The notes beneath the pieces are model-generated. The model was given only the letters and a program-made list of their open reading frames with translations, was not told where the DNA came from and did not search any database. The translations under genes and the position numbers were made by a program. This document shows positions 44,230-64,000 of a DNA stretch of 64,000 bases, piece after piece. How positions within the stretch are numbered: position 1 is the first letter of the stretch; each line of letters starts with the position of its first letter. The stretch is taken from positions 1,116,001 to 1,180,000 of the forward strand of contig JALJCQ010000012.1 in assembly GCA_023091665.1 (NCBI GenBank), in the 5' to 3' direction. The stretch comes from Pythium myriotylum. Its lineage: Eukaryota > Oomycota > Peronosporomycetes > Pythiales > Pythiaceae.

Positions 44230-46779
44230 ATGGTCGACTCAACGCGGCCTCGCTATGCGCAGTCACCGGACATGTTCACGACCAACCTCATCTCGGACGC
44301 GTCGCAGCTCAACCCCCATGCCCACACCGTACAGATTATCATGGTGTTGGGCTACGCCGTCATGAGTTTCCTATGCTTTGTTCTTATCTTCCATCTCCGA
44401 CGTAATCGCTCCGACGCTCGCAAGGGAGACAGCAGCGCCGCGCGGAAGCTCCTGCTGCCGACGTTCGAGCCTCTGCTCTGGATTCTCGGCATCGCCACGG
44501 GATCGTACGCGCTCACGATGCTCACGATTACGGTGCTCGGACTATTCCGCGATGGCACACCGCGCATCTTGAGCGAGCTCTTCTACTGCGGACGCCAGTT
44601 CGTTTTTCTCCTTGCGATGGTGTTCATGCTCCAAAAGTCTGTGTCCGTCCCCGCGCTCGGTCGATCGGTGGCCATCTCTCTCGCGCTCGCAACGTACACG
44701 CTGCCGGTGGTCATCTACATGACATACTGGGGTGAACCCGACAAGCAAGACACGTACTACGTCATTCAACGCGTGCTACGTCTTGTACTTGTGGCAGCCT
44801 TCCTCTACATTTTCTTGCGCCCGCCGAGTAGAGCGAGCAAGGCATCGATACGTTCGTACTGCTGCTTCACGTTCATCTACCAAGCGCTTTCATTCGCATC
44901 GAGCGAGCTCAACTACGTTGGCTATCGCCAGGCCGGATCTCTTGTCACGTACTGTGCTCTTATCTGGGCAGCGCTCGTTCCGCTCGTGATCTGGCGGCTA
45001 CTTTTGGCTGATACAGAGCACTGGAGAGGAATGGGGCAGCGAGCCTGTGCGCTGCAGAACGCATATCGCCAGAAGAACCAGATGCAGGAGCACGTCTCAG
45101 CTCAAGGGCTTCACGTACTCATCGAGATGCACCGGAAGCTTGTAATCGACTTTGCGTACTTGGAACTAAAGCGCCGGATTGGCGTCGGATCCAGTGCCGT
45201 TGTTTATGACGGCTGGCTTCACTCGTACACACCGGTGGCTACGAAGGTTTACACGCCCCTCGCGCTCACGGACGAAGTGGTCGCAAATTTCTCTCATGAA
45301 GCCGCTCTCTGTGCCGCCCTGCATCACCCAAACATCGTTCGATTCTACGGCATGTGCGTGTGTCCTCCGACTATTGGACTCGTATTCGAGCTCTGCCAGG
45401 GAAGTCTCGAGACCGTGTTACGAGCTAACGCGAATCGGGAGTTCCATAAGAACCACCAGACGACGATGATTAACTTGGGTTACTTGCTTGATGCGGCACG
45501 CGCCGTTGCCTACCTGCACAGCTTCTCGCCGCGTTTTCTTCATCGCGACATCAAGCCAGCCAACTTTCTTGTCGACAGTGACTACAACGTCAAACTCAGC
45601 GATTTTGGCGAGTCTCGAAGTCTCACGACTGGCGACGCAGGGAAGGACGACATGCTAAGCAGTCGCAGCCGCGACACGAATGTGTTGATTCGAACGCCGA
45701 CAGTTCTGGAGAGGTGCGAATCCACGAGGGCCCAGGAAATGACAGTCAAAGGCACTGTGGACTACATGGCCCCAGAGCTGATCAACGGTAAAGGAGGGTA
45801 CGCGTGCTACGGAGAGGCGGCTGATATATTCTCTCTAGCGATGACTATGTGGGATATCTTGCATCCAGGAGAAGAGCGGTATCCAGCTTGCAGAGACAAC
45901 CACTTGCAAGTGTTCCAAGCCGTCTTAGACGGGAAACGCCCAGCTATATCGCCAGACTTGCACCCAACGTTGCAGGAACTGATCTGCAGTGCCTGGCACA
46001 TGGACGCGCGACTTCGACCCTCCGCCCAGATCATCGTCAGTACGCTCGAGAGTATCCAAGAGGAGGTATGCGCGGAATTTCTGGCAGAAACCTTTTGGAG
46101 TTTTGGAGTCGACGTTCCAGCGTTAACTGCCTCAGATGACGAGGACAATGTCGGCTCTGGTAGCTCAAGTGGAGTCCTTGGTGGTAGCAGTCGTGGCGGT
46201 GAGGGCAAGTTGGTCGCGGATCCGATTTGTGGTGTCTTTTCGGGTGTGCAGATCGTGTGGCAGCTCGTATCCCTACAGTACGCAGACTGTGTCGGTGAAG
46301 CCAACCGCATGGGGCGGATGTGGATGGACACTGGCCTACTGCATCACGTTAAGCACGCGCGCGGATTCTCAGACGACAATGCGACCTACTACCTTGATGA
46401 AGAGCGCGTTCGAATGTGTCGACCACCGTCTAACGACGGGGCGCCCAAAACGCCATTGTCTCACCGGATGAGTGCTAGCGGCAGGCGCAAGCACACATTA
46501 TCCACTGACTCCCAGACTCCTAGCGAAACAAGCTCAAGGAGAACCAGCAACATTCCGTATCCTATGTGCGCATGTCGAAAGCACGGGCAGCGTCAGAACG
46601 AATCAACCAAGCCGGAACGGCGCAAGACGCTTAAGCGACAGAAATTCCAGACGATCTCTGAGGCGAACCTGTTAACGGCCTCGCTTCTCACGCCGGACGA
46701 AGGCGTCGCCGAGTTAACAGAGAGGCCATCCGATTTCGGGTGGTTTAGCGCTGACACGCTGAACGTAATCGTAGAATAA
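44230..46779 (+). CDS. Seven-transmembrane receptor fused to TKL-like kinase and DEP domain, copy A1
   Basis: 849 aa in one exon from the ATG at 44230 (MVDSTRPRYAQSPDMF). Seven hydrophobic helices lie between residues about 33 and 270: IIMVLGYAVMSFLCFVLIF, FEPLLWILGIATGSYALTML, FVFLLAMVFML, ISLALATYTLPVVIYM, VLRLVLVAAFLYIFL, CCFTFIYQALSFASS and LVTYCALIWAALVPLVIWRL. A conserved linker follows (LADTEHWRGMGQRACALQ, then LHVLIEMHRKLVIDFAYLEL). The kinase starts near residue 310 with IGVGSSAVVYDG, VATKVY, FLHRDIKPANFLVD, VKLSDFGESR, YMAPELI and YGEAADIFSLAMTMWD, all catalytic residues present. A DEP-like domain is near 670-725 (GRMWMDTGLLHHVKHARGF). The tail carries MCACRKHGQR and FQTISEANLLTASLL. 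Expected at a membrane, sensing outside or lumenal cues and phosphorylating inside. Confidence 0.88.
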   Translation: MVDSTRPRYAQSPDMFTTNLISDASQLNPHAHTVQIIMVLGYAVMSFLCFVLIFHLRRNRSDARKGDSSAARKLLLPTFEPLLWILGIATGSYALTMLTITVLGLFRDGTPRILSELFYCGRQFVFLLAMVFMLQKSVSVPALGRSVAISLALATYTLPVVIYMTYWGEPDKQDTYYVIQRVLRLVLVAAFLYIFLRPPSRASKASIRSYCCFTFIYQALSFASSELNYVGYRQAGSLVTYCALIWAALVPLVIWRLLLADTEHWRGMGQRACALQNAYRQKNQMQEHVSAQGLHVLIEMHRKLVIDFAYLELKRRIGVGSSAVVYDGWLHSYTPVATKVYTPLALTDEVVANFSHEAALCAALHHPNIVRFYGMCVCPPTIGLVFELCQGSLETVLRANANREFHKNHQTTMINLGYLLDAARAVAYLHSFSPRFLHRDIKPANFLVDSDYNVKLSDFGESRSLTTGDAGKDDMLSSRSRDTNVLIRTPTVLERCESTRAQEMTVKGTVDYMAPELINGKGGYACYGEAADIFSLAMTMWDILHPGEERYPACRDNHLQVFQAVLDGKRPAISPDLHPTLQELICSAWHMDARLRPSAQIIVSTLESIQEEVCAEFLAETFWSFGVDVPALTASDDEDNVGSGSSSGVLGGSSRGGEGKLVADPICGVFSGVQIVWQLVSLQYADCVGEANRMGRMWMDTGLLHHVKHARGFSDDNATYYLDEERVRMCRPPSNDGAPKTPLSHRMSASGRRKHTLSTDSQTPSETSSRRTSNIPYPMCACRKHGQRQNESTKPERRKTLKRQKFQTISEANLLTASLLTPDEGVAELTERPSDFGWFSADTLNVIVE

Positions 46780-47690
46780 GACCAACATGGATCAATGAAG
46801 ATAGCGGACAAGATACGTATCTATGAATCGAATGAGTCTTGTCGAAACCGTCCACTTTCAGTTGCAGCAACAGCGGACAGAGATGGTCATACAGGCATCA
46901 CGGTTCTGCTACACAACGGCATCACTCCATCGCTAAACCTCAATGGCGCCGCAGTTGAGCATTAGTATACCAACAGTACAACAGGACAGCTATCAGGATT
47001 CATAAGATGAGCTCAATAGACTTCACTTACACCATCAGTAGTAGCAACAACACCAAAATTGTGAAATGATCGTCACGGTGTCCGATTCGTTAACAAATAT
47101 TCCGGCGACTGACAGATACAAGTAATCTTTTGATGGGCACCAGCGTACGATTCGACCATTGGCTGTGCATTTCAACTTCGTTCTGTTGCGTCGCTTGATT
47201 TTGTCGCAGACCTGGTTAGGTCCACCGTTGCACTTCCGATCTCTGTGAGTATCCCAGCGATCGGCGCTACACAATATCGGTCGTACGTAAAGCGGTAACA
47301 GCACGCCATTGGTCTTTCTCTCAATCGGCGCCAAAAAATCAGACTGGTGTTGACGTCGCGCGTCGATTACAGTGCGGAATGTGTAAGTCACAGAGTCGTA
47401 GGTCGCGGAATCGAACATCGATCGCGCATTTTTTAACAGGAAGGCACAAAAACTGGATGGTAATGTCCTCCAGTCTTTGATGTAGACTTGATCTCGTTGA
47501 GGGGGGGCCCCTCTTTCTCCAGTCTGTCGATTGGATCATCGAGAGAGTCCAATGAGCTCACCATTAATTATAAAGATGCAGCCATAGCTCGTCACCTCTT
47601 ACTTGCCAGGAAAGCCACAAGGATTCTCGCATACGCCCAGGCTAATGGATGTGGGTTGACGAGAGAAGGCGCGCCGTAGTACAGCACGTC
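46780..47690. other. Gene-poor spacer with an unassigned small open frame
   Basis: No recognised gene. On the minus strand an ATG-started frame at 47418-47035 gives 127 residues with cysteines and basic runs (IKRRNRTKLKCTANGRIV) but no signal peptide or known domain. It may be chance or a relic. Confidence 0.35.
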
Positions 47691-48132
47691 GGCAACTACA
47701 CCTCGTTGATGGATTAGTCCGTGCCGAAGCTCGCCTCGGGTTTCTCCAACACCAAGAACTCGACCACAGGCAGCTTCATAGCCATGTGCATGCTTGGAAG
47801 CGACTTTGCCAAGCGAGCACAACTGCTGTCGAACGACCAAACCCGCGACGAGGTCGTCCATGTGATGCGCGCCATGTTTCCCATGGCGGCTCAGCCGAAT
47901 CGGCACCAAGACTGTCCACCGCTGAGGCTAAGATGACCTCTTCGACAACTCGTGGAGCAACCCTCGCCCGGACTTCACCAAAGTTGACTTTACCGAGCTT
48001 GCCGAGCCCGTAGGCCGCTTGTACTTTTCGGGCGAGCACACGTAGCCTAAGTACTAAAGCTACGTGCACGGAGCGTACCGCGCTGGAATCGCAACTGCGC
48101 AGCAGCTCAGGAAGCGCCCCGAGTTCCAGTAG
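47691..48132 (+). pseudogene. Decayed C-terminal part of a flavin amine oxidase
   Basis: Conceptual translation gives NYTSLMD, stop, VPKLASGFSNTKNSTTGSFI, then AMCMLGSDFAKRAQLL and VVHVMRAMFP. After a frameshift near 47920 it gives DLFDNSWSNPRPDFTKVDF, LAEPVGRLYFSGEHT, stop, PKY, stop, YVHGAYRAGIATAQQL and a final stop. The GRLYFSGEHT...VHGAYRAGIATA block is the C-terminal FAD-contacting signature of amine oxidases (monoamine, polyamine or L-amino-acid oxidase type). At least three in-frame stops (47715, 48043, 48055), one frameshift and no N-terminal dinucleotide-binding GxGxxG region in the preceding kilobase show that it is a dead fragment. Confidence 0.75.
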
Positions 48133-49136
48133 ATGAAGCCGTGTGGGATCGTGATGGGTTCGAGCGTTGAGTCACACTGTAGAGTCACATAACAATAAAG
48201 CTTGTCGTAAACTTGAATGATGCGAGTGTTTCTCTTTTCAAATCCCATTGTCGCGCCGAGGCTGCTCTATCCGCTCCTACTGGTCGGGAAGCACGAGCTG
48301 AGCGATGTGCCATTGAAACCATGTTCTGAGTTCCACGCGTGGCGATCCATCGCTGATAAACACGGCTGCCGCCCGACACCATGTGCTTCGGACCAGCGTA
48401 ACGCGTTCCTCCCCCATTCTTAGCGGTCTTCTTCAGGGTTCCTGATCGGAGTGGAGCTACGTAAATAGTCACAAAATCTGGACGAAATGTGGGATTGGGC
48501 ACACAGACCTCTCGTTCGCAGCACATCCAAACAATGACCCCCACGTGACATTTGCCACAGTCCTTGCGAACGGGTATGAGACGGCACTCGCTCTCGTCGA
48601 CCGTCTTCACAAGCTTGTGTCGAGACCTGTTCCGCAAGTGTCGACTTGGGATCGATTGGAACGGTGAGTTGGGTTCCAAAGTCGACAGTTATCGATCCAC
48701 TTATCACAGTCGATGATCCTAAAGCGCGAGATCACGTTTGATCGAGGGGGATGTAGAGTGTGAGTGAGCCTGATGGTGAAGCCCATTCGTTTCGATCTCA
48801 GCGTAGCTCGGTGATACCTCTTTTCCTACATGAGGAAACAGGAATTGACGCTGAATGAGTCTGGTCCAAAAGTAGCTGGCGAGTTGGCGGAGATCTTGAA
48901 TCTTGTTGAGGAGATCGGCACCGGTATCTGAGGTCAGTTCTCCAACGGCCGGAAACGTTCGCCACAGTATTCAGGGTAGACTATTTTTGCGGTCAAGATG
49001 TACCGTCGCATAGCTACTCGTCATTAAGTATTAAGTGATCGAAGGCCGCCGAGTTGCTCTCGAGAACCTCTCCTCGCTTGTATTCCGCATTTCGAAGGCT
49101 CAAGAACAAAGAAACATCAGCCGCTCGCGAACGCGT
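48133..49136. other. Gene-poor spacer
   Basis: About 1 kb. Minus-strand frames between 48185 and 48707 contain a cysteine-dense stretch (KDCGKCHVGVIVWMCCEREV) without a start or recognisable family. A short plus-strand frame near 48829 (MRKQELTLNESGPKVAGELA...) ends after 33 codons. Either could be a gene relic, and I assign no function. The frame of the downstream LRR protein is open up to 49035 without an ATG. Confidence 0.4.
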
Positions 49137-51419
49137 ATGAAAGCCCAAGCTACACAAGCCAAAGGCCCACCTGTCAGTTTAGAGCCGCGTCCACGACGAT
49201 CATGGGGATTTGTGGTGTGGTGGATCGTTCTCCTCTTCCTTCACGCCGCCAACGTCATCTACTACGCCGGTGCCGCCTGGTTGTACCGTCACTTCGCTTG
49301 GACTTACTTTGAGCATTCGCTAGAGACGAATTCGATTGGCATAAATGTGACCGAACACCCGAAAATCTCGAAGATCCACGCGGTTATTGCTGCGATCCAC
49401 GTGCTTTTCATGCTGCTCATGGTCGTGGGGTCCATCTTGGCTCGAAGATTCGTTTTTCAACCCGAGCTGGCTCGATACACACATTACATGGTCCGTCGTC
49501 TATCTGGCAAGTCTAAGACGGCCTCTTCAACGGAGGGATTATTCTTCAGAAAATTATTGGGGACCAAGATCGTGAAGAGGCTGTCCTCGACTGCCAGTCG
49601 AAGTGGCAGCTTCCTTCTTGCGCGCGACGGTCTCCTGGGCGTGGAGAGCGTCTACTTCGACCATATCCTTCTTATCCGCGAGTTGGTGGAGACATCGCTG
49701 CAGACTTACCAAGTCTTCCGTATGTCTCAGGTGCTGCCTCGATTGTGGCTGATCCGCTTCTACCTCGCTCTGCTGGTCATCAATTGCTGGGCTGTGCCAT
49801 TCCTGCATCGATATTACCGGAACAAAGAGAATCTTCGGCGGCTACTGTGCCTGCTGTGCGACGCTGTGCTTGACATGCTCTCCTCAATCGGTGTATCAAT
49901 CATCATCTTCGCGACCTACGCCCCGCAGTATACCGACCCCAATCTGTTCGGTTTTCCAATGGCCTCATGGTATGATGACGAGTGGTTTTCCAACATGCAG
50001 CAGGAGTTCCAGATCATGCTGGTCGCCTCCTGGACCGACATGCTCTCTCGTCTGGTGTTTGCAGTGGGGCTGCTTCAGTGTATGGAAGCCATCAAGGATC
50101 TCCTGACGACGTGGACGATAACTGCTTCTGGGCCAACAGATACCGTAAGTAACAAAGCTGTCATACCAACAGGCACGGAGATTGACGCAAAGCTGGGGCC
50201 AAAATTGGACGAGATGGCTGGAGCAATGAACGATAATCCTGCCGAGAGTTTTTCTGACAAGTTGGCCAAGCCTAGCCTCTCTCGGCTACCTCTCGAGACG
50301 ATTCAGTCGGACAACGCAAGAAAAAAAAAGGATTGGTTTCATCGCGCAATTCATTTTATCGTCCACATCGGAGGACCAGGACTCTTCGTCACGTGGGGGT
50401 TTGTGCTTATCGCCGTCCACGTCACCGCCGAGTCCAACCACAACAAGGCACAGTGTTCGCTGAATCTAAAACCTTGGTTTTCCAGCAAGCCAGGCTGTTC
50501 TCTCGTCGAACTTAACTGTAGATCTCTGCGTTCTTCAGGACATGACGAAGTAATCGGCTCGGTGTGGGATGCTTTCGACCCGGATCGCGCCGCTGGAATC
50601 GTGATTCGCCACTGTGCAGAGCTGGTTGTTCCGTCCAAGATCCAAGACTACCACCACATCACAAGTCTCAAAGTCTACAACTCGACGGTTGTCGGCTGGG
50701 ATGACGATTCGGCACTGACTAGCACCAAGAACCCGAACCTTCGGACGATATTCCTCATTCGTACGTTCACGACGACAGGCCAGTTGCCGCGTGGAATGTT
50801 GTCGCCCGACTTCCCGTCAGGAGTTCGAAACATCTACATGTCGGTGACGAACTTCCCGACACTCCCTAACGACCTGGACACTCGATGGCCAAAACGACTG
50901 ATGCTATCGATGGAGTTTTCTCCGGTCACTTCAATACCGGACGTCGTCGTCCGTCTGGATCCTCTGTCGGTCTCCTTTGCCGGCACCGCCATCTCGACTG
51001 TCTCGACAGAGATATTTGAGTTGCCACATGTGGATGGGATACTGTTCGGTCTTACGCGGGTTCAAGAGTTGCCTCGAAATGTCAGCTCCATCAACCCTGT
51101 GATCCGAGCCATCTTGCTGCAGTACACGAATGTGACGGAATTCTGGTCGTGGATGGACCACTACGCGTATTTCCTCCAGACTTTTCCCGGAAGAGCTTTT
51201 AATGCTTTTGGCACGCCGTACTGTCGCGAGCTTCTCGAGATCGCCAACGGCAATCGGACCGCGTTCTCAGTGAGCCCCAAGCCAGACCACAGCGTCTTGA
51301 TGGATGTCTCGACACCAGCCAAGCTAGCGTTTGTAATGCGAGCAATCGAGTGCTCAACGCCGATTCCACTCTCGAGCTTCCCACTTCCACTCGAGGACGC
51401 CAAGCACGCATGGACCTAG
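49137..51419 (+). CDS. Multi-pass transmembrane protein with LRR-like ectodomain, copy 1
   Basis: 760 aa in one exon from the ATG at 49137 (MKAQATQAKGPPVSLEPRPR). Hydrophobic helices include FVVWWIVLLFLHAANVIYYA, IHAVIAAIHVLFMLLMVVG, LWLIRFYLALLVINCWAVPF, LCDAVLDMLSSIGVSIIIF, SRLVFAVGLLQCMEAI and, near residue 415, GPGLFVTWGFVLIAVHVTAE. After the last helix comes a C-terminal region of about 330 residues with degenerate leucine-rich repeats (ITSLKVYNSTVVGW, LPRGMLSPDFPSGVRNIYM, FPTLPNDLDTRWPKRLML). It contains paired cysteines near its start (KAQCSLNLKPWFSSKPGCSL) and a TPYCRELLEIANGNRTAF end. It has no kinase domain. The architecture matches the gene at 55955-58356 and sits between receptor-kinase copies A1 and B1. 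Ligand and function unknown. Confidence 0.78.
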   Translation: MKAQATQAKGPPVSLEPRPRRSWGFVVWWIVLLFLHAANVIYYAGAAWLYRHFAWTYFEHSLETNSIGINVTEHPKISKIHAVIAAIHVLFMLLMVVGSILARRFVFQPELARYTHYMVRRLSGKSKTASSTEGLFFRKLLGTKIVKRLSSTASRSGSFLLARDGLLGVESVYFDHILLIRELVETSLQTYQVFRMSQVLPRLWLIRFYLALLVINCWAVPFLHRYYRNKENLRRLLCLLCDAVLDMLSSIGVSIIIFATYAPQYTDPNLFGFPMASWYDDEWFSNMQQEFQIMLVASWTDMLSRLVFAVGLLQCMEAIKDLLTTWTITASGPTDTVSNKAVIPTGTEIDAKLGPKLDEMAGAMNDNPAESFSDKLAKPSLSRLPLETIQSDNARKKKDWFHRAIHFIVHIGGPGLFVTWGFVLIAVHVTAESNHNKAQCSLNLKPWFSSKPGCSLVELNCRSLRSSGHDEVIGSVWDAFDPDRAAGIVIRHCAELVVPSKIQDYHHITSLKVYNSTVVGWDDDSALTSTKNPNLRTIFLIRTFTTTGQLPRGMLSPDFPSGVRNIYMSVTNFPTLPNDLDTRWPKRLMLSMEFSPVTSIPDVVVRLDPLSVSFAGTAISTVSTEIFELPHVDGILFGLTRVQELPRNVSSINPVIRAILLQYTNVTEFWSWMDHYAYFLQTFPGRAFNAFGTPYCRELLEIANGNRTAFSVSPKPDHSVLMDVSTPAKLAFVMRAIECSTPIPLSSFPLPLEDAKHAWT

Positions 51420-52760: not shown

Positions 52761-55541
52761 TTACGCTGCCTCGCCAACCTTTCTCGTCGCCGAGTCTCGG
52801 AATGCAGCGAAGTCTACACCGGTCGAGCTATGATACTGCTGATCATCGGTGAGGAGGCGGGCCGTGAGCAAGTTTTCATCACTGAAGACCTTGAACTTTC
52901 GACGGATTTGACGACGAGTTGTGCGCTCGGTCTCCACTCGCTGGCCGAGCTTGCGACAAGCACAACGGTTTTCCATCAAGACATGGGAGCTGTGACTGCC
53001 TACGCGCTCTTGACCACCAACGATGAGCCCGTGGCAGCTCGATCCGGTCGAGTTTTGGTCTTGACGAAGCTTCTGTCGCTGAAGTTGCCGAGCTCTCTCG
53101 CTGAATGCAACAGGGGCCTGTGGGTTGCCACGCCCCGACGCACAACCACTCTCGTCTGCAAGGTCCATGACAATTAGTGGCTGACACAGTAAGATATGGT
53201 CCTCGTCGAAAAAGTATTGAGATCCCGAATACTCAAAGCCACGCGCATGCTTGGCGTGGTGAAGGAAGCCGCTGTCCATGAGCATGCTGCCGAGGCGAAT
53301 CGCCTCACTTTGAGATTCCACGAAGTCCCCGATCCGAAGCTTTTCAACAGCTTGTGTGCCAGCAAAACTGGTGTGGCTGCGTTGCCGCGTAGACTTCGAT
53401 GCTGTCTTCCCCGCTGTGGAGACTTGAACGCTGAGTTCTTCCATGAGCTCCAGAGCGAAAGTCGCGCACATCTCTTCTTGGATGGCCTGTAGCGACGCGA
53501 CGACAGCTTGCGCGGTGGGACGCTGTCGGGGATCCGCGTGCCAGGCAGACTCGATCAACTCGCGGAGACAAGGGTGGAGGAGATGATCCAAAACGGGGCG
53601 CTCGCCGGCGAACACAAGCTCAAAAATCTCCGAGTCACGTTGTCCGACTTCTCCACGTCGAAAACTTCCTTTCGTCTTGCTCGTGGTGGAGCCAAGCTGG
53701 TACTTGGTCATACCAGGATTTAATATGTCCCACATCGTCATCGCCAACGAATACACATCCGCAGCCTCTCCGTAGATAAAAGTCCCAGCGTGACGACCTT
53801 TGATGACCTCTGGGGCCACATACTGAGCTGTGCATTTGACAGAGCTCGCGACGACCCCGGGTATCTCGAGTACCGTCCTGCCTACCGAAGACAATGACGA
53901 CTGGATATCTCGTTCAATATTGGTTTTTGCCAGCGTTGCAGCCTCGGTTGGCCGGTGCTGATGGCCGCTGTTGGATCGAGCGGCTAGTGTTCGAGACGCC
54001 CCGAAGTCCGTGAGCTTGACTGTTCCTTCGTCATCCACCAAGAAATTGCTTGGTTTAATATCCCGATGGACAAACGGGGGAGAGAAGCTATGCAAGTACG
54101 CGACAGCTCGAGCCGCGTCAATCATGTAACCGATATTGATGAGAAACTGCTGACGACGCGGTGTGGGGATCACGCCCTGTCGAATCCAGTTGTGTTGGGC
54201 TTGCGTGACATCCACGAGCGAACCTTGGCACAGTTCGGTCACCAAGCAGATGTTCGGTGGACACACGCAGAGTCCGTGGAACTTGAGGATATTTGGATGC
54301 ACAAGGGAGCCGCACAATGCCGCCTCATGTGAGAACTCGGCGACTGTCTCTTCTGTGAACTCAGTCGGTGTGTAGATCTTGACAGCCACGGGTAGCTTCT
54401 TGGTGTGAAGAAAACCGCGGTACACTATTGCACCCAGACTCTCGACCGGCGAAGATATCGGCTCATAGAGCTGCAAGTGGGCAAAATCGATAATATACTT
54501 GCGGTGCATTTCGATGAGCACGTGGAATCCTTGCGAGGAGACGCGCTCGTCTACTCGTGCGTTCTTGCGACGAAAAATCGCCTGGAGCTCGACAGCTCGC
54601 TTGCCGATTCCTCGCCAGTGTTCCGTGTCGGCACGAAGAACGCGCCACACGAAAATTGGCAAACATGTCGAGTATACTGTAATGACCCACCCTAGCGCGG
54701 TTGCCGTATGGACGTAGTTCTGGCGAAAAGTCTCGCCTGTCGTGAACACGAGCAGCATCATAGAGATGATGTAGCCACTGAACTCGCGCATGGTCTGTTT
54801 ACTCGCCCGCGCTGGTGGGAAGACGAAGCGATACGTGAAGTAAAGCAGCACTGGAGTGCGCGAGGCAACCAAAACCCAGTAGTACATACGCTCTCTGTCT
54901 TTGGCGCCGTAGGAGTTCATAACCCAAACAATTGGCACCGTGTAGATCGACATCAAGAGCGCCTGAACCACTGCGCGAGAGAGCGCGCGCATGGAGAGAC
55001 TCGGCTGCTGCAAAAAGATCGGGACGAGCACGAAGTTGAGTTGTTTACCAGCGTACATGATTTCGATCGAAACTCGCGTGAGGTACACGAGGTAGTCGTT
55101 CGATGCGAGCATTACGCCGTACGCCACGAGGTATAGCAGGTTGACGCCGCAGAGGAGCCAAAGCAGGGGTTCAAACGCAGGTAGCACGATCTTCCGGATG
55201 GCTTCGGTGTCCCCGCTCAGCGCGAGGGTCCGGTTCCGGCGAATGCGGAGGAGAAGTAGGCCGCACGTCGTCATCATGAGCAAGAAGACGAGCATGAGCG
55301 TGAGCGACAAGCCGGTGGCTGATTTTTTCACCTCATGGAGAATCGACTCGATGACACCAAGTTGGGCCTGGTAGATCTGCTCCTGTGTGAGTCCTTGGAA
55401 TGGCGGGAAGTTGGTGCCACTGAGAAGACTGCCCAGATACGGATTATAGGGGGCATCAAAAATTGGCGGCTCTGGTAGCGGAGGAAGCGTTGGGTGGATG
55501 GGTCCTGGGCCTGAGGAGCTGTTGGAAGGATGGCGCAGCAT
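52761..55541 (-). CDS. Seven-transmembrane receptor fused to TKL-like kinase and DEP domain, copy B1
   Basis: 926 aa in one exon from the ATG at 55541 (MLRHPSNSSSGPGPIHPTLP). An outside segment of about 80 residues with PEPPIFDAPYNPYLG precedes seven helices (LTLMLVFLLMMTTCGLLLL, FEPLLWLLCGVNLLYLVAYG, LNFVLVPIFL, LLMSIYTVPIVWVM, VLLYFTYRFVFPPA, YIISMMLLVFTTGE and ITVYSTCLPIFVWRVL). The linker RADTEHWRGIGKRAVELQ and HVLIEMHRKYIIDFAHLQL is conserved. In the kinase domain the glycine loop is degenerate (SPVESLGAIVYRG), but VAVKIY, FVHRDIKPSNFLVD and VKLTDFGASR are present, so activity is plausible but unsure. A DEP-like domain is near 724-780 (GSMLMDSGFLHHAKHARGF). The tail has RCACRKLGQR and ENLLTARLL. 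Closest local relative is copy B2 at 62868. Confidence 0.88.
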   Translation of the reverse strand: MLRHPSNSSSGPGPIHPTLPPLPEPPIFDAPYNPYLGSLLSGTNFPPFQGLTQEQIYQAQLGVIESILHEVKKSATGLSLTLMLVFLLMMTTCGLLLLRIRRNRTLALSGDTEAIRKIVLPAFEPLLWLLCGVNLLYLVAYGVMLASNDYLVYLTRVSIEIMYAGKQLNFVLVPIFLQQPSLSMRALSRAVVQALLMSIYTVPIVWVMNSYGAKDRERMYYWVLVASRTPVLLYFTYRFVFPPARASKQTMREFSGYIISMMLLVFTTGETFRQNYVHTATALGWVITVYSTCLPIFVWRVLRADTEHWRGIGKRAVELQAIFRRKNARVDERVSSQGFHVLIEMHRKYIIDFAHLQLYEPISSPVESLGAIVYRGFLHTKKLPVAVKIYTPTEFTEETVAEFSHEAALCGSLVHPNILKFHGLCVCPPNICLVTELCQGSLVDVTQAQHNWIRQGVIPTPRRQQFLINIGYMIDAARAVAYLHSFSPPFVHRDIKPSNFLVDDEGTVKLTDFGASRTLAARSNSGHQHRPTEAATLAKTNIERDIQSSLSSVGRTVLEIPGVVASSVKCTAQYVAPEVIKGRHAGTFIYGEAADVYSLAMTMWDILNPGMTKYQLGSTTSKTKGSFRRGEVGQRDSEIFELVFAGERPVLDHLLHPCLRELIESAWHADPRQRPTAQAVVASLQAIQEEMCATFALELMEELSVQVSTAGKTASKSTRQRSHTSFAGTQAVEKLRIGDFVESQSEAIRLGSMLMDSGFLHHAKHARGFEYSGSQYFFDEDHILLCQPLIVMDLADESGCASGRGNPQAPVAFSERARQLQRQKLRQDQNSTGSSCHGLIVGGQERVGSHSSHVLMENRCACRKLGQRVETERTTRRQIRRKFKVFSDENLLTARLLTDDQQYHSSTGVDFAAFRDSATRKVGEAA

Positions 55542-55954
55542 TGAAGAAGATGGCAATATCCGAACTGATCACCAGCTTAGGTTTCTCCGATCCCTCGGTC
55601 GAGTACCTTCTGCTGATGGTGTGTTGGAGGGCGACCCCTCGAACATCAAAGTTCAGCACCCAGAAACGCCTGATATGTAAGACTCAACGGCAACGAAAGA
55701 ACGGGGTCCCGTGATTTTGTTGAGCTGAAGACGTTTTTGCACACCGGTGGAGATGCTTTGACCCTGTGTTTTGTGTTCTGTGCTATGGAAGAAAAATGGA
55801 GACGGAAGATATGATACAGCCAGTCAGTTTCTCAGAGAGCTGAACCGAGACGATGTGGTGTTCCTAGGTGAACGTACCGAGAATGATGTGCATTTTTATT
55901 CATGAAGCGATATTTTGATATGTTTCCGTTTTAAAAGAGAGGTGGCTAGACGCC
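55542..55954. other. Spacer between receptor kinase B1 and the second LRR gene
   Basis: Promoter side of copy B1 and 3' side of the LRR gene. No gene seen. Confidence 0.5.
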
Positions 55955-58356
55955 TCAGCTCGCTGTACACCCGAGCCACGCCTCGTGGACCGGATCACAC
56001 GGCTTGCCGATGCGAAGGGCAATCTGCTCTTGGCGCATCTTGATCGCGAATGGGCTTGGATTGCACGAGACGGGCATCCATCGCGGGTTGTAGCACATGC
56101 CCTGGCCGTAGCCCGGTACTGTGCACTCGCGGAACATCGTGCCATTGCACTGCAGCATGTCAGCTCGCGTGGGAGGCATCTCGAGCTGGATGGGCTGCAG
56201 CACGCCCTGGCACGTTGTATCCTTGAATTTGACAAAAGCCCCTCGAGTGGCCTCCGAGGCAGCCTGGTCGGCGCTTAAACACTGGCTGACAGCCGGCTTA
56301 TCCCACAGTAGGTTATACTTGCACAGAGGGCTCTCGAGATCGCAATGACCCAGGAAGCCGTTGCAGCAGAAAGCGCCTCGCTCCACCACAATGAATATCT
56401 TGAGCTTCTTCAGGTTGTCGAGCTGAGGGAAAGTGATGAGACTCGGCATGTTGCCGATCATGAGTCGTTCGACGTTGTAGAGTTTGTCGAAGCTCGGAAA
56501 GGCCTCCATGGAGAGCATAATCCCGAGAGAGATGGAACGGACGTTGACGAGCCCGTCGAAAGAAGGGAGTTTCGTCATGCGGTGCAGTGCGATATGAATG
56601 AGCAGGAGCTTATCCATCTTGTCGAAGAGATTATCCGGGAGGCTGTGGAGCGATTCTTGCGATGTTGGTCCCGAGTCCTTCCCTTCAATGTGGCTGCAAT
56701 AAACTGGCATTGGGTGGTAACTGTGCAAACAGTGCAGACGCAAATACTCACAGGAATTCGAGATTCGTAAGGTCACGGAACCAATCCGGTAGTGTCCGCG
56801 TGTTCGTGTAATAGAGCGATCTGTCGAACAGCGAAAAGTCAGTGAGCCACCATCCACCTCTCATTGCATCTCGGTCACCTACACGTGTTTGAGGTTCTTG
56901 CAGCCGCGAACCTCTTCTGGCACTGTCTCGAGTCCCCGATTCACGAGCTGCAGTGTCTGCAGGAAGCCCAAGTTTGCGAGCTGGCTGATCTTGGTCACGC
57001 GGCTAGGAGGGGTGACCCAGTCTTCGTAGAAGGCGACCTCCAGTTCTCGATCGATGATCGAGATGCATGGGCAACGCGAGTGATCATCTTTCTCTCGATC
57101 GTAGATCCATCGGTGCGCGAACTGAGCGCATTCAGGGTGCATCGCGCACGCCTCTCTCGATGTGCGGAGACTCTCTTCCGTGGACACGATGATTGCGATG
57201 AACAGCAGCGCGTACGCCGCCGAGAAGAAGCGGTTCTTTTTTGGGTACACGTTCCGGTGGTTCTGTACTCCCTCGAGCTGAGATTGCAGCAGCTGTGCAA
57301 GCTCAATGAAGCGGTGGCAAAGAGATATGTTCGTGCCGACGCGCGTGAAGATCTTAAGAGCCGAGTCGATGCGCAAGGAGTCAAGCACGTGGCGAACAAG
57401 CTCCACCCGCGATGGGTCAGCGACGATGATCGCAAATCGCTCAAAGAACCCAACTGGGAAAATTGTCTGGTTCACACCGAAGAGCGGCCTATCGAAGTTG
57501 AAGAGATACTTGGCGTAGAGTACTTCAATGATTGGGAAGATTACTGCGACCACGAGATCGAAGCCCGTGTCGCTCAGCACGTGGACACGCCCCATGTTCT
57601 CAAATGGCAACACCGAGAAAATGAAGCTCGTGAGCGCGTTCAGTGCGACGATTGCCGCGAAGAGCACGCACAAACCCACGGGCATACCGTCCTCCAAGAA
57701 CTGCGCCAGCACCACGCATTGCACGAAAATCTCAGCGAACTTAATCGCTGACGCCTATTTGAGCGAACAGAGAACGTTCTCGTAAGACCGAGGTATGTGG
57801 ATGATTTATACGAGCACTGACTCACCATTCGTCGACGTGTCGAGCTTTTTGCGTCAAACACCTCCAGCATAACCTGACTGGCGAGACGCTTGGCTGTCTC
57901 AGTTCTCGAGGACTTGATCGAGTTGTATTCAGCACGCTCTGTGTTGATGGCTGCGTTGCTGTTCGTGACCTTGGCACGGAGATTTCCGAGCGTCGAGCTG
58001 GAGACGCGGTGGTGCGCAACGAGGCGCCCACGACGCAGCATGACAACGATCTTGGTCATCGTGACCACGTATCCGATTGCGACGCAGCCGAGACCGGCAA
58101 CACCGACGCCAACGATGACCGGCGGCGGATTGCTCATGAGCCAGAATGTGCCATAGTCAAAGTCGGCCGTGTCCATCAGTGCATTGACCGTCGTTGTCGG
58201 GTCTGCTGTTAGTGTTAGGATCCACAGCAGCCACATTAGACAGAGCAAAATCAGCACGAGAACTCCAGCGGCTGGCAAGCGGTCCACCAGCCACTTCTTT
58301 CTGGTCAGTGGCAACTTCGCCTTCTCTGATGAATCCACTGGCGCAGCTGCTCGCAT
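55955..58356 (-). CDS. Multi-pass transmembrane protein with LRR-like, cysteine-rich ectodomain, copy 2
   Basis: At least four exons: 57826-58356, 57754 to about 56877, one near 56840-56756 (LYYTNTRTLPDWFRDLTNLE), and one from about 56730 to 55955. The start is MRAAAPVDSSEKAKLPLTRK. Membrane helices include GVLVLILLCLMWLLWILTLT, VIVGVGVAGLGCVAIGYVV, VGLCVLFAAIVALNALTSFI, GFDLVVAVIFPIIEVLYA and FFSAAYALLFIAIIVSTE. After the last comes an LRR region (LANLGFLQTLQLVNRGLETV, LPSFDGLVNVRSISL, YNVERLMIGNMPSLITFPQL). The end is cysteine-rich (FCCNGFLGHCDLESPLCKYN, then ECTVPGYGQGMCYN and KPCDPVHEAWLGC), which could be disulfide-bonded and extracellular. No kinase domain. Same plan as 49137-51419. Confidence 0.8.
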
Positions 58357-59431
58357 ATCGCTCGACGGCTCTAAGCGCCCTGCGATGGCCGGAGTACGAG
58401 ACTAGCCAAATTGTCTCCCATGATGTAAACGACGCAAGTTACTTTGGACGGCGCCCTTTGAATGAAAAATACTGCGGAACCTCAGTCACCCTACGTCACT
58501 TGTGTCTTCGCCGTCAATGCCCAGAAGTTCGTCTCGTTGCCGTGTCGTCACTAAACTCCCTTCATAGACTTGAAGTGACGAGCTATCTGAGTGTCTTGGG
58601 CGCGAATCGAAGAGTGACCCTAACGGCCATACGCAGATGAACGAGAAGAAGGGAAAGGCGCATGAGAAGTTGCAGTCTCTGAGATCAGGAGCTTAGAGTG
58701 CGGGGCTATTTCCAGCACTTGTCGTAACCACATGCTAGCCTCTGCGACCGCTTTCGTGTATTGTTTGTCGTTGACCAATCGGATCAGGTGGTCTGCAGAA
58801 AGATGAGCGTTGTCAACCCCCTCCAATCGGCATGCCGCTGGCAGTGCCAGTTAGGGTGAGCTCCCAAAGAATGTGCAAGACCAGAAAGCTAACAGACCAA
58901 AAAGATCTAAGCCCGTGCAATTCGAGCACCCACCGCACGTGGCTTGTCGCCCACCGTCTCCTGGGAAGAAGTATTCTTAGGATGCGAGCTCTCATCGTTC
59001 GCTATCTGGCCGGCTCACAGACGGACCGTTTACCGAGCGAGGGATTTTGGCGGGACTCTAGGTTAGGGGCGCCCGCTGAATGAGCCTCTGCTCTTGCATG
59101 GCTCAGATGTGCACATGTAGCTGAACACCTTCTCGCATCACGCAGCTCATAACTGATTCCAAGCTCTTGCGGCGATAATGGTGCAAGTTCGTCATGCATA
59201 GTCATGACTCACATCGAGTCCGTGGTACGTCTATTGTCGTTGTCGTTTTCTCCTCGCGGGGCCCTTCTTCATATCGACGGCATCGGATTTCGGCGTGAGG
59301 TGAGCCCAACTTTCGATGCCGGTTTCAAGTAAGGAAGAGAGAGACCCATGATATTTTTTCTATCCTCCAGTATCTTCACAAGCTTTACCGTGGTTGACTC
59401 GTCAGAGCTCGTTAGGATTTACTCATTGAAG
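58357..59431. other. Gene-poor spacer with short minus-strand frames
   Basis: 1.1 kb. Minus-strand frames at 58813-58995 (HVRWVLELHGLRSFWSVSF..., hydrophobic) and 58620-58826 (MEGVDNAHLSADHLIRLVND...) could be relics of another transmembrane gene's 5' end, but neither is long enough to support. No other feature seen. Confidence 0.35.
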
Positions 59432-61993
59432 CTACTCCTGAATACGCTCATCGCCAAGCCCAACCCAATCAAAGTCACTCAATCCTGTTTTGGTCGAGTA
59501 ACTGCCCGTTTCTTCGTGCGGTGCGAGGAACGAGGCGGTGAGCACGTCGACCTCTGCGATGGTCGGCACCTTCTTGCGACGGAATCGGTGGCGTCTGCTT
59601 GATTTCAAATCGTGGGTAAGTCGCTGACCATGCTTTCGGCACGCGCACGGAGGAACACGACTGGAGACCGTCGATGGGACCGTCTCGGACGTCGGAGTGA
59701 GACCTCGACGTCGCCGATATCCAAACGATGAACTATGACTACGACTGCAAGGACGTGACGTCGCTGGTCGTGGTCCTCCAGAGCTACTGCCGTTGAAATG
59801 GAACCGGTCGTGAGTGCCGCCACCGCCATTTCTAAGAGGTTGGCAGAGTCTGATTGCGTCTTCGTCCAAGTAAAACGCCTCCTCGTTATCAGTGAACCCG
59901 TGGGCGTGCTTGGCGTGGTGTAAGAAGCCAGCATCCATCCACATTCGCCCCATCCGCAAGGCCTCGGCGACGTTTGCGACGTATCGATTCGATCGCAAAT
60001 GCTCGACGGTGTCGAACCCAGTGAACATTCCCGTCGGAACCGGATTCGTCTGCCCGTCTCCAGATCCATCTTCTTCAGAAACTAGTAGCACGAGGCTCTC
60101 GGCACCAAAGTCATCAAGGCATGCGACGATACTCTGGGCGCAAACCTCCTCCTGGATCGTCTCAAGGATACTCACCATCTCGTGGGCAGTCGGACGCAAC
60201 CGAGGGTCCTCGTGCCAACCACTACAGATCAGCTCTCGCAGTGTCGGGTGGACATCGGGCGAGACGTCGGGGCGCTTGCCGTCAAGGACAGCCTGGAAAA
60301 CGTGCAGGTGGTTGTTCGTGCAGCCTGGATACCGCTCTTCTCCTGGATGCAGGATGTCCCACATCGTCATCGCCAACGAGTACACGTCGGCTGCTTCTCC
60401 GTAGCAGGCGAAGCCGCCCTTGCCATTAATCAGCTCTGGTGCCATGTACTCAACCGTGCCCTTGACAGTCATCTGCTGGGCAGTTTCGCGCACCTGGAGG
60501 ACTGTCGGCGACGGGAGGCTCGTGACGGCTGTGAAGCGATCGTCGGGCTCGATTACCATGCCCGTCGATGAGCTCCGTGTCGCCTCGCCGCTAGAGGTCA
60601 CGGCCCGAGACTCGCCAAAGTCAGAGAGCTTGACGTTGTGATCGCTGTCGACCAAGAAATTAGCCGGCTTGATATCTCGGTGGATGAAGCTGGGCGAGAA
60701 GCTGTGGAGATACGCGACTGCGCGTGCGGCGTCGAGCATGTAGCCAACGTTGATGCTCACAGTCTGGCGGACGACTTGGGTGGCCTCCAGTCGTTGGTTT
60801 GAAAGCACCACACTGTCAAGGCTACCCTGGCATAGTTCGAAGACGAGGCAGATCGTCGGAGGATACACGCAGAGACCGTGAAAGGTGACGATGTTTGGAT
60901 GGTGGAGAGCTCCGCACAGTGCCGCTTCCTGGGAAAAGCTCGCCACAACCTCGTCCGTGAGTGTTCGCGGAGTGTACACTTTGGTGGCGACGGGCGTGCG
61001 CGAGTGGAGCAGACCGTTGTAGACGACAGCGCTGGCGCCGACGCCGATCTTGCGTTTGAGCTCTAGGTACGCGAAGTCGATTAGCAGCTTACGGTGCATC
61101 TCGATCAGCAAGTGGAGGCCCTGTGAGGAAACATGCTCGTGAACGCGGTTGCGCGACCGTAAGACATGCTGCAGCGCGCACGCTCGCTGGCCCATGCCTC
61201 TCCAGTGCTCAGTGTCAGCTCGCAGCACGCGCCAGATCAAAAGGGGGCACAGTCCCGCCCACAGCAATGCGCCGTTGGTGACGACGTAGCCCGAGTCGCG
61301 GTACCCCGCGTGAAAGAGCTCGTTCGCGGTGATCGACAACCCCTGGTACACAAAGGTGAACGCGCAGAACTCACGGATCGTTTTCTTCGAGGCACGTGTC
61401 GGTGGGTACAAGCAAATGTAGACGTAGCCCGCGACCAGTAGCAACCTCAGCACGCGTTGGACGACGTAGTACAGATCCGCTTTGCTCGGGTCGCCCCAAG
61501 TGGCCGTGTAGACGACGAACGGTAGCGTGTAGGTGGCGAGAACGAGCGAGATCAGCACGCAGCGTCGAAGTGCTGGGATACTCACGGACTTCTGGTGCAT
61601 GGACACCATGACCAACAGGAACACGAACTGGCGGCCGCAGTAGAAGCATTCAGCAGCAACCTTGGAGGGTCCTGATTCGAAGACATCCAAGACGAGCAGC
61701 AGAAAGAGCGTGAGCGTGAAGGTCCCTGTCGTCGCCCCCAAGATCCATAGCAAGGGCTCGAAAGCCGGCAGGATCACTCGCTGTGCCGCGCTGCTGTTGC
61801 CCTTGAGGGCGTCCGATCGGTTGTGTCGCAGATGAGCGATGAGCACGAAACTGAGGAAGCACATGAGTCCATAGCCTAGCACCATGATGACCTGCACGGT
61901 GTCGGCACTGGGGTTCATTAGTGGCCGTTGGATAAACATTGTCGGCGTGCCGATGCTTGGGTAATCTGAGAGGCTCGAGCTCGAGTTATTCAT
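59432..61993 (-). CDS. Seven-transmembrane receptor fused to TKL-like kinase and DEP domain, copy A2
   Basis: 853 aa in one exon from the ATG at 61993 (MNNSSSSLSDYPSIGTPTMF); an in-frame ATG at 62239 would add 82 residues. It is close in length and sequence to copy A1. Helices include IMVLGYGLMCFLSFVLIAHL, FEPLLWILGATTGTFTLTLF, FVFLLVMVSM, VLISLVLATYTLPFVVYTA, LRLLLVAGYVYICLYPP, FCAFTFVYQGLSITA and TNGALLWAGLCPLLIWRVL. The linker has RADTEHWRGMGQRACALQ. The kinase is complete: IGVGASAVVYNG, VATKVY, FIHRDIKPANFLVD, VKLSDFGESR, YMAPELI and YGEAADVYSLAMTMWD. A DEP-like domain (GRMWMDAGFLHHAKHAHGF) lies near 660-711, followed by a Ser/Arg-rich stretch and the tail PPCACRKHGQR and VDVLTASFL. It is head-to-head with copy B2. 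Confidence 0.88.
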   Translation of the reverse strand: MNNSSSSLSDYPSIGTPTMFIQRPLMNPSADTVQVIMVLGYGLMCFLSFVLIAHLRHNRSDALKGNSSAAQRVILPAFEPLLWILGATTGTFTLTLFLLLVLDVFESGPSKVAAECFYCGRQFVFLLVMVSMHQKSVSIPALRRCVLISLVLATYTLPFVVYTATWGDPSKADLYYVVQRVLRLLLVAGYVYICLYPPTRASKKTIREFCAFTFVYQGLSITANELFHAGYRDSGYVVTNGALLWAGLCPLLIWRVLRADTEHWRGMGQRACALQHVLRSRNRVHEHVSSQGLHLLIEMHRKLLIDFAYLELKRKIGVGASAVVYNGLLHSRTPVATKVYTPRTLTDEVVASFSQEAALCGALHHPNIVTFHGLCVYPPTICLVFELCQGSLDSVVLSNQRLEATQVVRQTVSINVGYMLDAARAVAYLHSFSPSFIHRDIKPANFLVDSDHNVKLSDFGESRAVTSSGEATRSSSTGMVIEPDDRFTAVTSLPSPTVLQVRETAQQMTVKGTVEYMAPELINGKGGFACYGEAADVYSLAMTMWDILHPGEERYPGCTNNHLHVFQAVLDGKRPDVSPDVHPTLRELICSGWHEDPRLRPTAHEMVSILETIQEEVCAQSIVACLDDFGAESLVLLVSEEDGSGDGQTNPVPTGMFTGFDTVEHLRSNRYVANVAEALRMGRMWMDAGFLHHAKHAHGFTDNEEAFYLDEDAIRLCQPLRNGGGGTHDRFHFNGSSSGGPRPATSRPCSRSHSSSFGYRRRRGLTPTSETVPSTVSSRVPPCACRKHGQRLTHDLKSSRRHRFRRKKVPTIAEVDVLTASFLAPHEETGSYSTKTGLSDFDWVGLGDERIQE

Positions 61994-62867
61994 CTCAGTC
62001 GTGCGATGTTGTTGGAATAGATGGCCGACAAATGGTGTGGGGCCGGGTCGACTTGCGGAATGTGGTGGCGATTGTAGACTACAGCCGTCCAGAATATCTT
62101 GGAGTTCGAAGAAAAGGCTCGGGACAGATCTAGGGTGTGCACTGAGAGTGTGCGAGAGAGAATAATAACAGAACGATCGACTTGCACTGGCTTCAGGTTT
62201 CGCTGACCATCCATACAAGAGCCTCCAAAAGCGTTTCACGCGACCCGTCGCTACTGCAAAGAGGGGAAAGCACGCCCTCTTCTCATCACTGCTCTTGCGT
62301 CGCCAAATATCAAGACGTGCACAAGTGTGTAGGACAAAAACGATAAGCTTTATATATCTTGAAGAGCTACAACCGTCTGACCTTTCAAGATCGTGATACC
62401 AATTCGAATTGAGTCATCTACCTACTCGATGGATTTTTGGCACACGGATGGAGATGCTCTTGACGTCTGCGCCAAATGTACACTGTAGTGGAGAGACTAC
62501 ACGTGTGAAGGTGGCAAAAATTAGAAGCATGAAAACTGCACCAGTCAGAGAACAGCTTGCAACTTTGGTGGAACTCAGTTTGTACTGAACTCAAGTGCAT
62601 TGTCGTCCAACGGCTTGCAGTGAAACGGCCGCGGAGTGAGATCCTCGTGTTCTCGGAAGTCGGTCTTCCTTCCACCGAATATGCGGGAGCTGCGATTGTT
62701 GAACATCGAAGATGGGGGATTTATCGAGCGACGGGGACAGCAAATTGAAGCTGGCCAGATGGGAGAAGATCGTTGGCTGGTAGTCTCTATTGTCTTGCGC
62801 TGATGCTATGCGCTTGCGCCTTCTCCAGAGATTCAATCCGCCCCACTCGCTAACTCTCTCTTTCACA
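61994..62867. other. Divergent promoter region of two receptor-kinase genes
   Basis: 874 bp between the oppositely transcribed copies A2 and B2. It should hold both promoters and 5' UTRs. An AT-rich patch near 62345-62360 (AAGCTTTATATATCTTG) is TATA-like. No gene is supported. Confidence 0.45.
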
Positions 62868-64000
62868 ATGACGGGCAACGCGTCGTCTCAATTTCCTCCG
62901 CTGCCGCAGCTCCCCGAGCCGCCGATCTTCGATCCGCCCTACAACGCCAGACTCGCCGCCGTTCTAGACGGCTCCGCGTTCCCTCCCGACATGTCGCCGG
63001 ACCAAGTCTACCACGCCCAGCTAGGCGTGCTCCAAGCGATCATCGACGAGCTCAAGTCAACGTCGGTGAACCTGGCCATCGCGCTCATGGTTGCCTGGCT
63101 GCTCATGGTAGTTCTGTGCGGACTGCTACTTGTTCGCATTCGCCGGAACCGCCAACTGGCGTTAAGCGGCGACGTCGACGCGGCGCGCAAGATTGTTCTA
63201 CCAGCCTTCGAGCCGCTCCTGTGGCTTCTCTGTGGATCCAACCTGCTTTACGTCGTGGTCTACGGCGTACTGCTGGCTGGTACCGACTTGGTAAATAACC
63301 AGAACCGACTGACGATCGAGGTCGCGGTTGTCGTCAAGCAGATTAACGGTTTGCTGGTACCCATCTACTTGCTCCAGCCCAGCCTCTCGCTTCGAGCGCT
63401 ACGCACGGCCTCAGTGCAGACCGTCGCGTTGTCCGTATACACGATCCCTGTGCTTATGGTTCTCACCGCAGTGGAATCGCACCGCAACACGCGCTTCTGC
63501 TACTGGACGCTGATGGCTGCACGGGGTCTCGTCGGGCTCTATTTGCTATACTGCATCGTGTACCCACCTGCACGAGCCAGTGCACTTGCATTTCGGGTCA
63601 CCTGCGCGTACGTCATCACGATGATGCTGCTGATCTTTGCGACTGCCGAGTCCTTCCATCGCGGCCACCCAGACGTCGCCAAAACCTTGGCTTGGGCTGT
63701 CACGTTCTACTCGATGGCTCTACCCATTTGCGTGTGGCTGCTGCTTCGCGCCGACACGGAGCACTGGCGAGGGATCGGCAAGCGAGCAGTCGAGCTACAA
63801 GACGTCTTCCGCCGCTCCAAAGGCAAGATCGACGAGCGTGTCTCATCGCAAGGTCTCCACGTACTCATCGAGATGCATCGCAAGTTCATCATTGACTTTG
63901 CTCACTTGCAGCTGCGAGGGCGTCTGCGCGAGGGCACCCGAGACGATAACTCTGCCGCTGTCTACCGTGGGTTTCTCCATACGAAGAAGGCACCAGTAGC
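62868..64000 (+). CDS. Seven-transmembrane receptor fused to kinase, copy B2 (partial)
   Basis: Open from the ATG at 62868 (MTGNASSQFPPLPQLPEPPI) to the window edge, 377 codons without a stop. The N-terminal segment has LPEPPIFDPPYNARLAAVL, matching copy B1. Seven helices follow (IALMVAWLLMVVLCGLLLV, FEPLLWLLCGSNLLYVVVYG, GLLVPIYLL, LSVYTIPVLMVLTA, ARGLVGLYLLYCIVYPP, YVITMMLLIFATAE and VTFYSMALPICVWLLLRAD), then the linker DTEHWRGIGKRAVELQ and LHVLIEMHRKFIIDFAHLQL. The start of the kinase domain lacks a canonical glycine loop (GRLREGTRDDNSAAVYRGF), as in copy B1. The catalytic motifs, DEP domain and tail are beyond the window. Confidence 0.85.
   Translation, partial: MTGNASSQFPPLPQLPEPPIFDPPYNARLAAVLDGSAFPPDMSPDQVYHAQLGVLQAIIDELKSTSVNLAIALMVAWLLMVVLCGLLLVRIRRNRQLALSGDVDAARKIVLPAFEPLLWLLCGSNLLYVVVYGVLLAGTDLVNNQNRLTIEVAVVVKQINGLLVPIYLLQPSLSLRALRTASVQTVALSVYTIPVLMVLTAVESHRNTRFCYWTLMAARGLVGLYLLYCIVYPPARASALAFRVTCAYVITMMLLIFATAESFHRGHPDVAKTLAWAVTFYSMALPICVWLLLRADTEHWRGIGKRAVELQDVFRRSKGKIDERVSSQGLHVLIEMHRKFIIDFAHLQLRGRLREGTRDDNSAAVYRGFLHTKKAPV

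Follow-up and report, generated by a model that had tools for sequence, protein, structure and literature searches.

Do the large open reading frames at one end of this stretch of Pythium myriotylum DNA encode membrane receptors with a built-in protein kinase, and to what family would such receptors belong? The window, by which we mean the whole 64,000-nucleotide stretch analysed here, corresponds to C12:1116001-1180000 (C12 being contig JALJCQ010000012.1), and a preliminary description of it had proposed a cluster of four genes with one single-chain layout: a seven-transmembrane (7TM) region, a linker, a TKL kinase and a DEP domain. This layout is borne out by unbroken frames and by Pfam matches to both kinase and DEP. 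All four genes were confirmed in place, three of them complete (849, 926 and 853 amino acids) and one crossing the window edge (910 amino acids when read whole). Taken as a whole, with the mechanism proposed below, the explanation that we favour and hold to be very probable is that they belong to the oomycete GPCR-TKL family (GPCR, G-protein-coupled receptor) and have been amplified in a local array. The GPCR-TKL architecture is known; new, as far as our literature searches reach, are the likely generality of the DEP domain, a linker specific to these genes within the genome and the pairing of canonical with divergent copies.

Extent of the family and its known relatives

G1 (44230..46779, plus strand), G2 (52761..55541, minus strand) and G3 (59432..61993, minus strand) each run unbroken for 849-926 codons from a start Met of our choosing; the frames of G1-G4 remain open upstream of the chosen starts, especially in G1 and G3. 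G4 (62868..64000, plus strand) has its first 377 codons in the window and ends at window coordinate 65597. G1 and G3 are sisters with canonical kinase motifs, and G2 and G4 belong to a divergent branch. The array continues past the window, with ten copies at C12:1160230-1234108, G1-G7 lying within 31 kb and G8-G10 beyond about 26 kb of other frames. A search of the genome (58.7 Mb) with G3 recovered three more full copies, dispersed on contigs C1, C3 and C15, which brings the total to at least 13; it also picked up a single shorter relative, likewise on C1, and matches to the kinase alone. Scoring was restricted to the best candidates, and gene counts from the genome searches are thus lower bounds.

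A chance fusion or sequencing artefact is ruled out by the ten unbroken frames (849-1037 codons) on one contig. The oomycete character suggested at the outset also stood. Among relatives, kinase and DEP matches are present in all of the best 120 of 262 (DEP precomputed in 68 and found by scan in 52), which again speaks against chance fusion. Among the matches listed, the best named relatives are from P. oligandrum, with 56% identity to G3 and 53% to G2, and for G2 also from P. insidiosum. One record in nr bears the name "GPCR-TKL 3" (P0078); it is 42% identical across 87% of the query, and its DEP falls below the cut-off. Two Saprolegniales proteins, P0001 (1529 amino acids) and P0002 (1509 amino acids), appear by eye to hold two 7TM-TKL-DEP-like modules each, and may be either merged neighbours or true double receptors.

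Whether this combination had already been described was asked at the outset, and it had: GPCR-TKLs with a C-terminal DEP are described from oomycetes in van den Hoogen et al. 2018 (PMC5784254), with 17 in Phytophthora infestans, and again in PMC6033456. The likeness extends to the order of 7TM, TKL kinase and C-terminal DEP in one chain and to multiple copies in an oomycete; the difference is that DEP is reported there in 8 of 17, whereas here it occurs in all 13 genes found, beside a DEP-less lineage. Both papers discuss a bypass of G proteins and a role of DEP in regulating receptor signalling, and the modes of action considered in PMC6033456 include direct activation, receptor phosphorylation and an inactive catalytic domain. 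Earlier, Judelson and Ah-Fong 2010 (PMC3019232) presented transmembrane TKLs of P. infestans, one drawn with an intracellular DEP, and gave TKL as the commonest clustered kinase; according to PMC5784254, their GPCR-like topology went unnoticed there. The GPCR-PIPKs of oomycetes and Dictyostelium, as described in PMC5784254 and PMC12716839, likewise fuse a kinase to a 7TM region through a conserved post-7TM linker motif, LR(x)9GI, but theirs is a lipid kinase, and Pfam finds no PIPK domain in our 13 proteins. The choanoflagellate GPCR-TKL/K proteins (eLife 2025, PMC12716839) have the same order of 7TM and TKL kinase, but are called probably convergent there, with a 7TM region that does not cluster with others, and it is by that description that we set them apart. 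GPR155/LYCHOS shares the multi-helix region and C-terminal DEP, and our own profile matches its DEP weakly; it differs in having a transporter-like part, no kinase named and a holozoan distribution, as given in PMC12716839. To the knowledge of the authors of PMC12716839, no GPCR-TKL has been functionally characterised.

Linker, kinase and DEP domain

Between the last transmembrane helix (TM7) and the kinase lies a conserved cytosolic linker, at 45001..45168 in G1 (plus strand; ADTEHWRG...EMHRK..IDFA), 54468..54638 in G2 (minus), 61058..61225 in G3 (minus) and 63744..63914 in G4 (plus). It was measured in an alignment (A2) of 66 sequences, 10 of our own and 56 chosen by hand from the 120 listed relatives, the three dispersed copies being excluded. 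The majority residue has a frequency of 0.79 in the linker, 0.67 in the kinase and 0.59 in the 7TM region, and columns conserved at 90% or more number 29/56 in the linker (G3 residues 257-312), 33/228 in the 7TM region and 109/305 in the kinase. The linker is hence the best conserved of the defined regions; a single 15-residue window over the catalytic loop is higher (0.92 vs 0.89). When a 60-residue piece of it was compared with the genome, the 13 genes matched and no others did up to E = 1; the shorter relative on C1, which by eye has a weak form of the linker, was missed by this search. Because it is so strongly conserved in this position, we infer that the linker is the natural coupling element between TM7 and kinase, and it is the obvious element to mutate for receptor-kinase coupling.

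The kinase domain (45169..46068 in G1, plus strand; 53469..54467 in G2 and 60143..61057 in G3, both minus) is matched by Pfam in all three complete copies, with best E values of 4.3e-33 to 2.4e-41. A family kinase profile has as its best matches in PDB the kinases CTR1, TAK1 and Roco4, all of the TKL group, in agreement with the TKL-like character first suggested. The catalytic loop of the canonical copies reads HRDIKPxN, which is of the Ser/Thr type, and these copies are likely to be ligand-controlled Ser/Thr receptor kinases. The activation-loop insert varies: from DFG to APE there are 39-83 residues across the 13 genes, and the C1 relative has 22. Downstream of DEP, a CxC[RK] motif occurs in 134 of 149 family members (CxCRK at 46567..46590 in G1, plus strand, near the C-terminus; 52941..52964 in G2 and 59624..59647 in G3, both minus); close to the C-terminal end, 50 of 149 have a [DE][FW]xx[FW] motif, where shuffles give 2.3 +/- 1.6. 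One might guess that these tail motifs serve membrane anchoring or trafficking.

A DEP-like domain had been claimed for the three complete copies, and Pfam matches it in each: at 46222..46428 in G1 (plus strand; 18.5 bits), 53169..53387 in G2 and 59828..60043 in G3 (both minus). The E values are 1.9e-3, 2.9e-6 and 1.6e-6, the frames being scanned with some upstream codons, and all three scores are below the curated cut-off of 32.7 bits. So is that of G4, whose DEP (E 1.8e-7 in the whole protein) lies beyond the window edge. In whole-protein scans, all 13 of our genes match DEP at E 3.1e-9 to 1.9e-3, one of them above the cut-off; in a single-frame genome search, 7 of the 13 are above it. The 52 relatives with no precomputed DEP among the 120 listed also match at E <= 0.1, every one of them, mostly below the cut-off. 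The Pfam alignments start at profile position 11-24, which points to a degenerate first part of the domain. A profile built from the 12 sub-threshold copies of our own gave 24 PDB matches at E <= 1, the best at 2.1e-13, representing about six proteins (P-Rex1/2, DEPTOR, EPAC-type exchange factors, pleckstrin 2 and GPR155), all of them known DEP proteins.

A separate membrane-TKL lineage without DEP served as a negative control. Its copy in this genome is the C1 relative (C1:1239394-1241040), in which no DEP was found at E <= 1, and none was found at E <= 0.1 in four further members (P0140, P0142, P0155 and P0172). Among the matches listed (best 120 of 2487), the lineage is present in Pythium, Phytophthora, Albugo, Saprolegnia and Aphanomyces; its mean hydropathy displays six segments before the kinase in our own frame, and additional ones occur in the relatives' N-terminal extension. 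Six other TKLs that were scanned for DEP are fragments, and so are uninformative about whole proteins. That the DEP is a chance match is ruled out by this control together with the 52 of 52 scan and the PDB matches of the profile. DEP looks general in the family and part of its core design, and as such, rather than as a trait of half the family, it sharpens the target for functional work on GPCR-TKLs. PMC5784254 used SMART and InterProScan (the methods passage in question concerns the PIPK search), and much of its count of 8 in 17 would be accounted for by cut-offs; this is supported by the P. infestans protein P0066, since its DEP scores 18.2 bits and none is precomputed. The DEP-less lineage is unlikely to suffice as a cause of that count, one member having been found in our own genome. 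A second kinase-DEP pairing was seen at C7:1046187-1049423, where one frame encodes a DEP followed by a kinase that by eye looks AGC-like.

Seven-helix region and its orientation

Helices were called from hydropathy, with a threshold of 1.0 per segment, and place the seven-helix region at 44329..44994 in G1 and 63072..63737 in G4 (both plus strand), and at 54645..55310 in G2 and 61232..61897 in G3 (both minus). The mean profile of 148 family members has seven segments preceding the linker (G3 residues 36-51, 77-101, 120-135, 144-159, 182-193, 213-220 and 242-251) and two further peaks, both within the kinase; the threshold is accordingly not specific, kinase stretches scoring 1.35-1.84. Taken individually, 128 of the 148 relatives reach seven segments and 18 reach six. 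The seven helices of the preliminary description were recovered in G1, G2 and G4, but G3 has six when read alone, its TM6 scoring 0.84. Seven segments are found in 10 of the 13 copies of our own, G3 and D1 having six (TM6 weak) and G5 five (TM6 and TM7), and a stricter single-protein scan gives fewer in some copies.

The mean K+R content of the inner loops is 5.2/2.5/4.1, compared with 1.1/0.9/1.3 for the outer loops (148 sequences). N-glycosylation-type sequons number 168 in the N-termini against 45.4 +/- 6.1 in shuffles, with at least one in 79 of 149 sequences, and are at or below the shuffled number elsewhere: 89 vs 88.1 in the activation insert, 49 vs 61.1 in the post-DEP spacer and 27 vs 48.8 +/- 6.0 at the C-terminal end. 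Because the inner loops are basic and sequons are enriched at the N-terminus, the data fit a topology with the N-terminus outside and the kinase inside. The N-termini of canonical members are short (fewer than 60 residues in 113 of 127) and poorly conserved in the 66-sequence alignment. No conserved extracellular cysteine was found in the stretches examined, where the maximum was 20 of 150 per column.

Divergent branch, proposed mechanism and alternatives

Two trees were built, both without P0001 and P0002 and the second also without P0135, on account of double or odd length; P0096, which has a gap in its kinase, was excluded from the tallies. In a FastTree phylogeny of 150 proteins, a divergent branch with support 1.0 contains 21 members, namely G2, G4, G5, G6 and G7 together with 16 relatives: 5 records from P. 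oligandrum, 6 from P. insidiosum (several strains) and 5 unnamed, so that all named members are Pythium. The relatives of G2 are the best 120 of 421. Half of the ten cluster genes thus fall in the branch, two in the window and three, G5-G7, beside it. DFGE is present in 1/21 divergent vs 112/127 canonical members, the Mg-binding Asn in 11/21 vs 124/127, the first loop glycine in 11/21 vs 127/127 and the catalytic-loop Lys in 14/21 vs 124/127, the losses varying from member to member; G2 has lost the glycine loop and keeps HRD, Asn and DFG.

The branch is also marked outside the membrane. A PxxPxxx[IV]FD motif precedes TM1 in 21/21 of its members and 0/127 others; in G2 it is PPLPEPPIFDAPYNPY (55437..55484, minus strand) and in G4 PPLPQLPEPPIFDPP (62895..62939, plus strand). 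Two Lagenidium proteins (P0118 and P0136), which form the sister group (support 0.92), have a shorter PxPPIF with catalytic motifs intact, which suggests that the outer motif arose first and the active-site change came later. Consecutive P. oligandrum locus tags 004028-004030 hold two branch members and one G1/G3-type gene (adjacency taken from the tag numbers), and the mixed canonical/divergent array therefore probably predates this genome. The titles and opening parts of abstracts that we searched, outside subscription journals and supplements, dealt neither with the divergent branch or its extracellular motif nor with a general presence of DEP.

In the mechanism that we propose, binding of a ligand at the 7TM region would shift TM7, and the linker would relay this movement to the N-lobe of the kinase, releasing or pairing kinases. 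These could then phosphorylate targets close by as well as their own inserts, with no need of a G protein, while DEP and the CxC/basic tail would keep the kinase at the membrane or at a receptor loop. Catalysis may be weaker in the divergent branch, which could act as a ligand-specific co-receptor for its canonical siblings. An extension of this, by analogy a 7TM version of the HER2/HER3 principle, is that divergent partners, with an active site that is losing parts but with outer motif, linker and DEP retained, would recognise the ligand (or present a tethered peptide) and allosterically activate canonical kinases in heteromers; we consider it unlikely. Inactive kinases were named as possible HER3-like partners in PMC3019232; the residues used there to judge inactivity are retained in our divergent branch. 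As a single array holds canonical as well as divergent siblings, the partner-receptor question becomes testable.

Several observations weigh against this picture. By classical signs the divergent members are not pseudokinases, the VAxK Lys, HRD Asp and DFG Asp being retained in 21/21, and P0137, inside the branch, has mostly canonical kinase motifs. Conversely D3, outside the branch, carries Ser in place of the Mg-binding Asn and Gln in place of the helix-C Glu. At equal 7TM identity, kinase identity in five bins is 0.53/0.56/0.61/0.70/0.68 for branch pairs vs 0.53/0.59/0.62/0.64/0.69 for canonical ones. As to the receptor part, the five or six segments of three of our 13 copies count on the same side; moreover, a 7TM profile has no PDB match at E <= 10, and no Pfam family matches the 7TM region of more than 2 of the 13 members, none of those families being a GPCR family. 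The label "GPCR" therefore rests on helix number and topology. The canonical motifs of P0137 may reflect gene conversion between neighbours or a reversal.

How far do these and other data favour different explanations? Signalling could run mainly via G proteins or arrestin, kinase and DEP forming a built-in GRK/RGS-like desensitiser of the same or a neighbouring receptor; this is possible, though doubtful. Desensitisation is proposed in PMC5784254 and PMC6033456, in which P. infestans has one GRK gene and no PKC and DEP is present in some RGS proteins, and our DEP profile weakly reaches GPR155, a multi-helix DEP protein (E 0.11-0.22). The closest DEPs, however, are those of P-Rex and DEPTOR, and the 24 PDB matches at E <= 1 include no RGS protein; in addition, conservation is higher in the linker than in the 7TM region, which favours direct coupling. 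Quite unlikely, in our estimation, is a 7TM region that is a membrane anchor or scaffold, with other receptors, or the membrane, controlling the kinases. Such an anchor would agree with the missing sequence link to any GPCR in PDB or Pfam and with the short, variable N-termini of canonical members, but not with the many near-invariant residues at helix ends and inner loops, nor would a branch-specific conserved extracellular motif be expected of it.

The divergent genes, finally, could be ordinary duplicates, fully active or relaxed toward loss, and devoid of a co-receptor role. Tandem copies are said in PMC3019232 to tolerate decay, the losses differ among members while three key residues stay, and the conservation of the kinase is about equal to that in canonical pairs. 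On the other hand, at 7TM identity of 35-45% the DEP (0.54 vs 0.43) and the linker (0.76 vs 0.69) are kept better in branch pairs than in canonical ones, and in the same direction in all five bins, in a comparison where pairs are not independent and several P. insidiosum records come from different strains. The five branch copies in our genome lack internal stops, and the branch occurs in two named Pythium species. We regard ordinary duplication as a real but minority possibility, and a possible co-receptor role remains part of the explanation favoured here.

Two neighbouring features complete the window. Between G1 and G2 (49035-51419, plus strand) is an open frame of 794 amino acids with several hydrophobic stretches by eye and no Pfam match above the cut-off. 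Between G2 and G3 (55955-58356, minus strand), overlapping frame pieces look by eye like a membrane and leucine-rich-repeat-like gene, either with introns or decayed.

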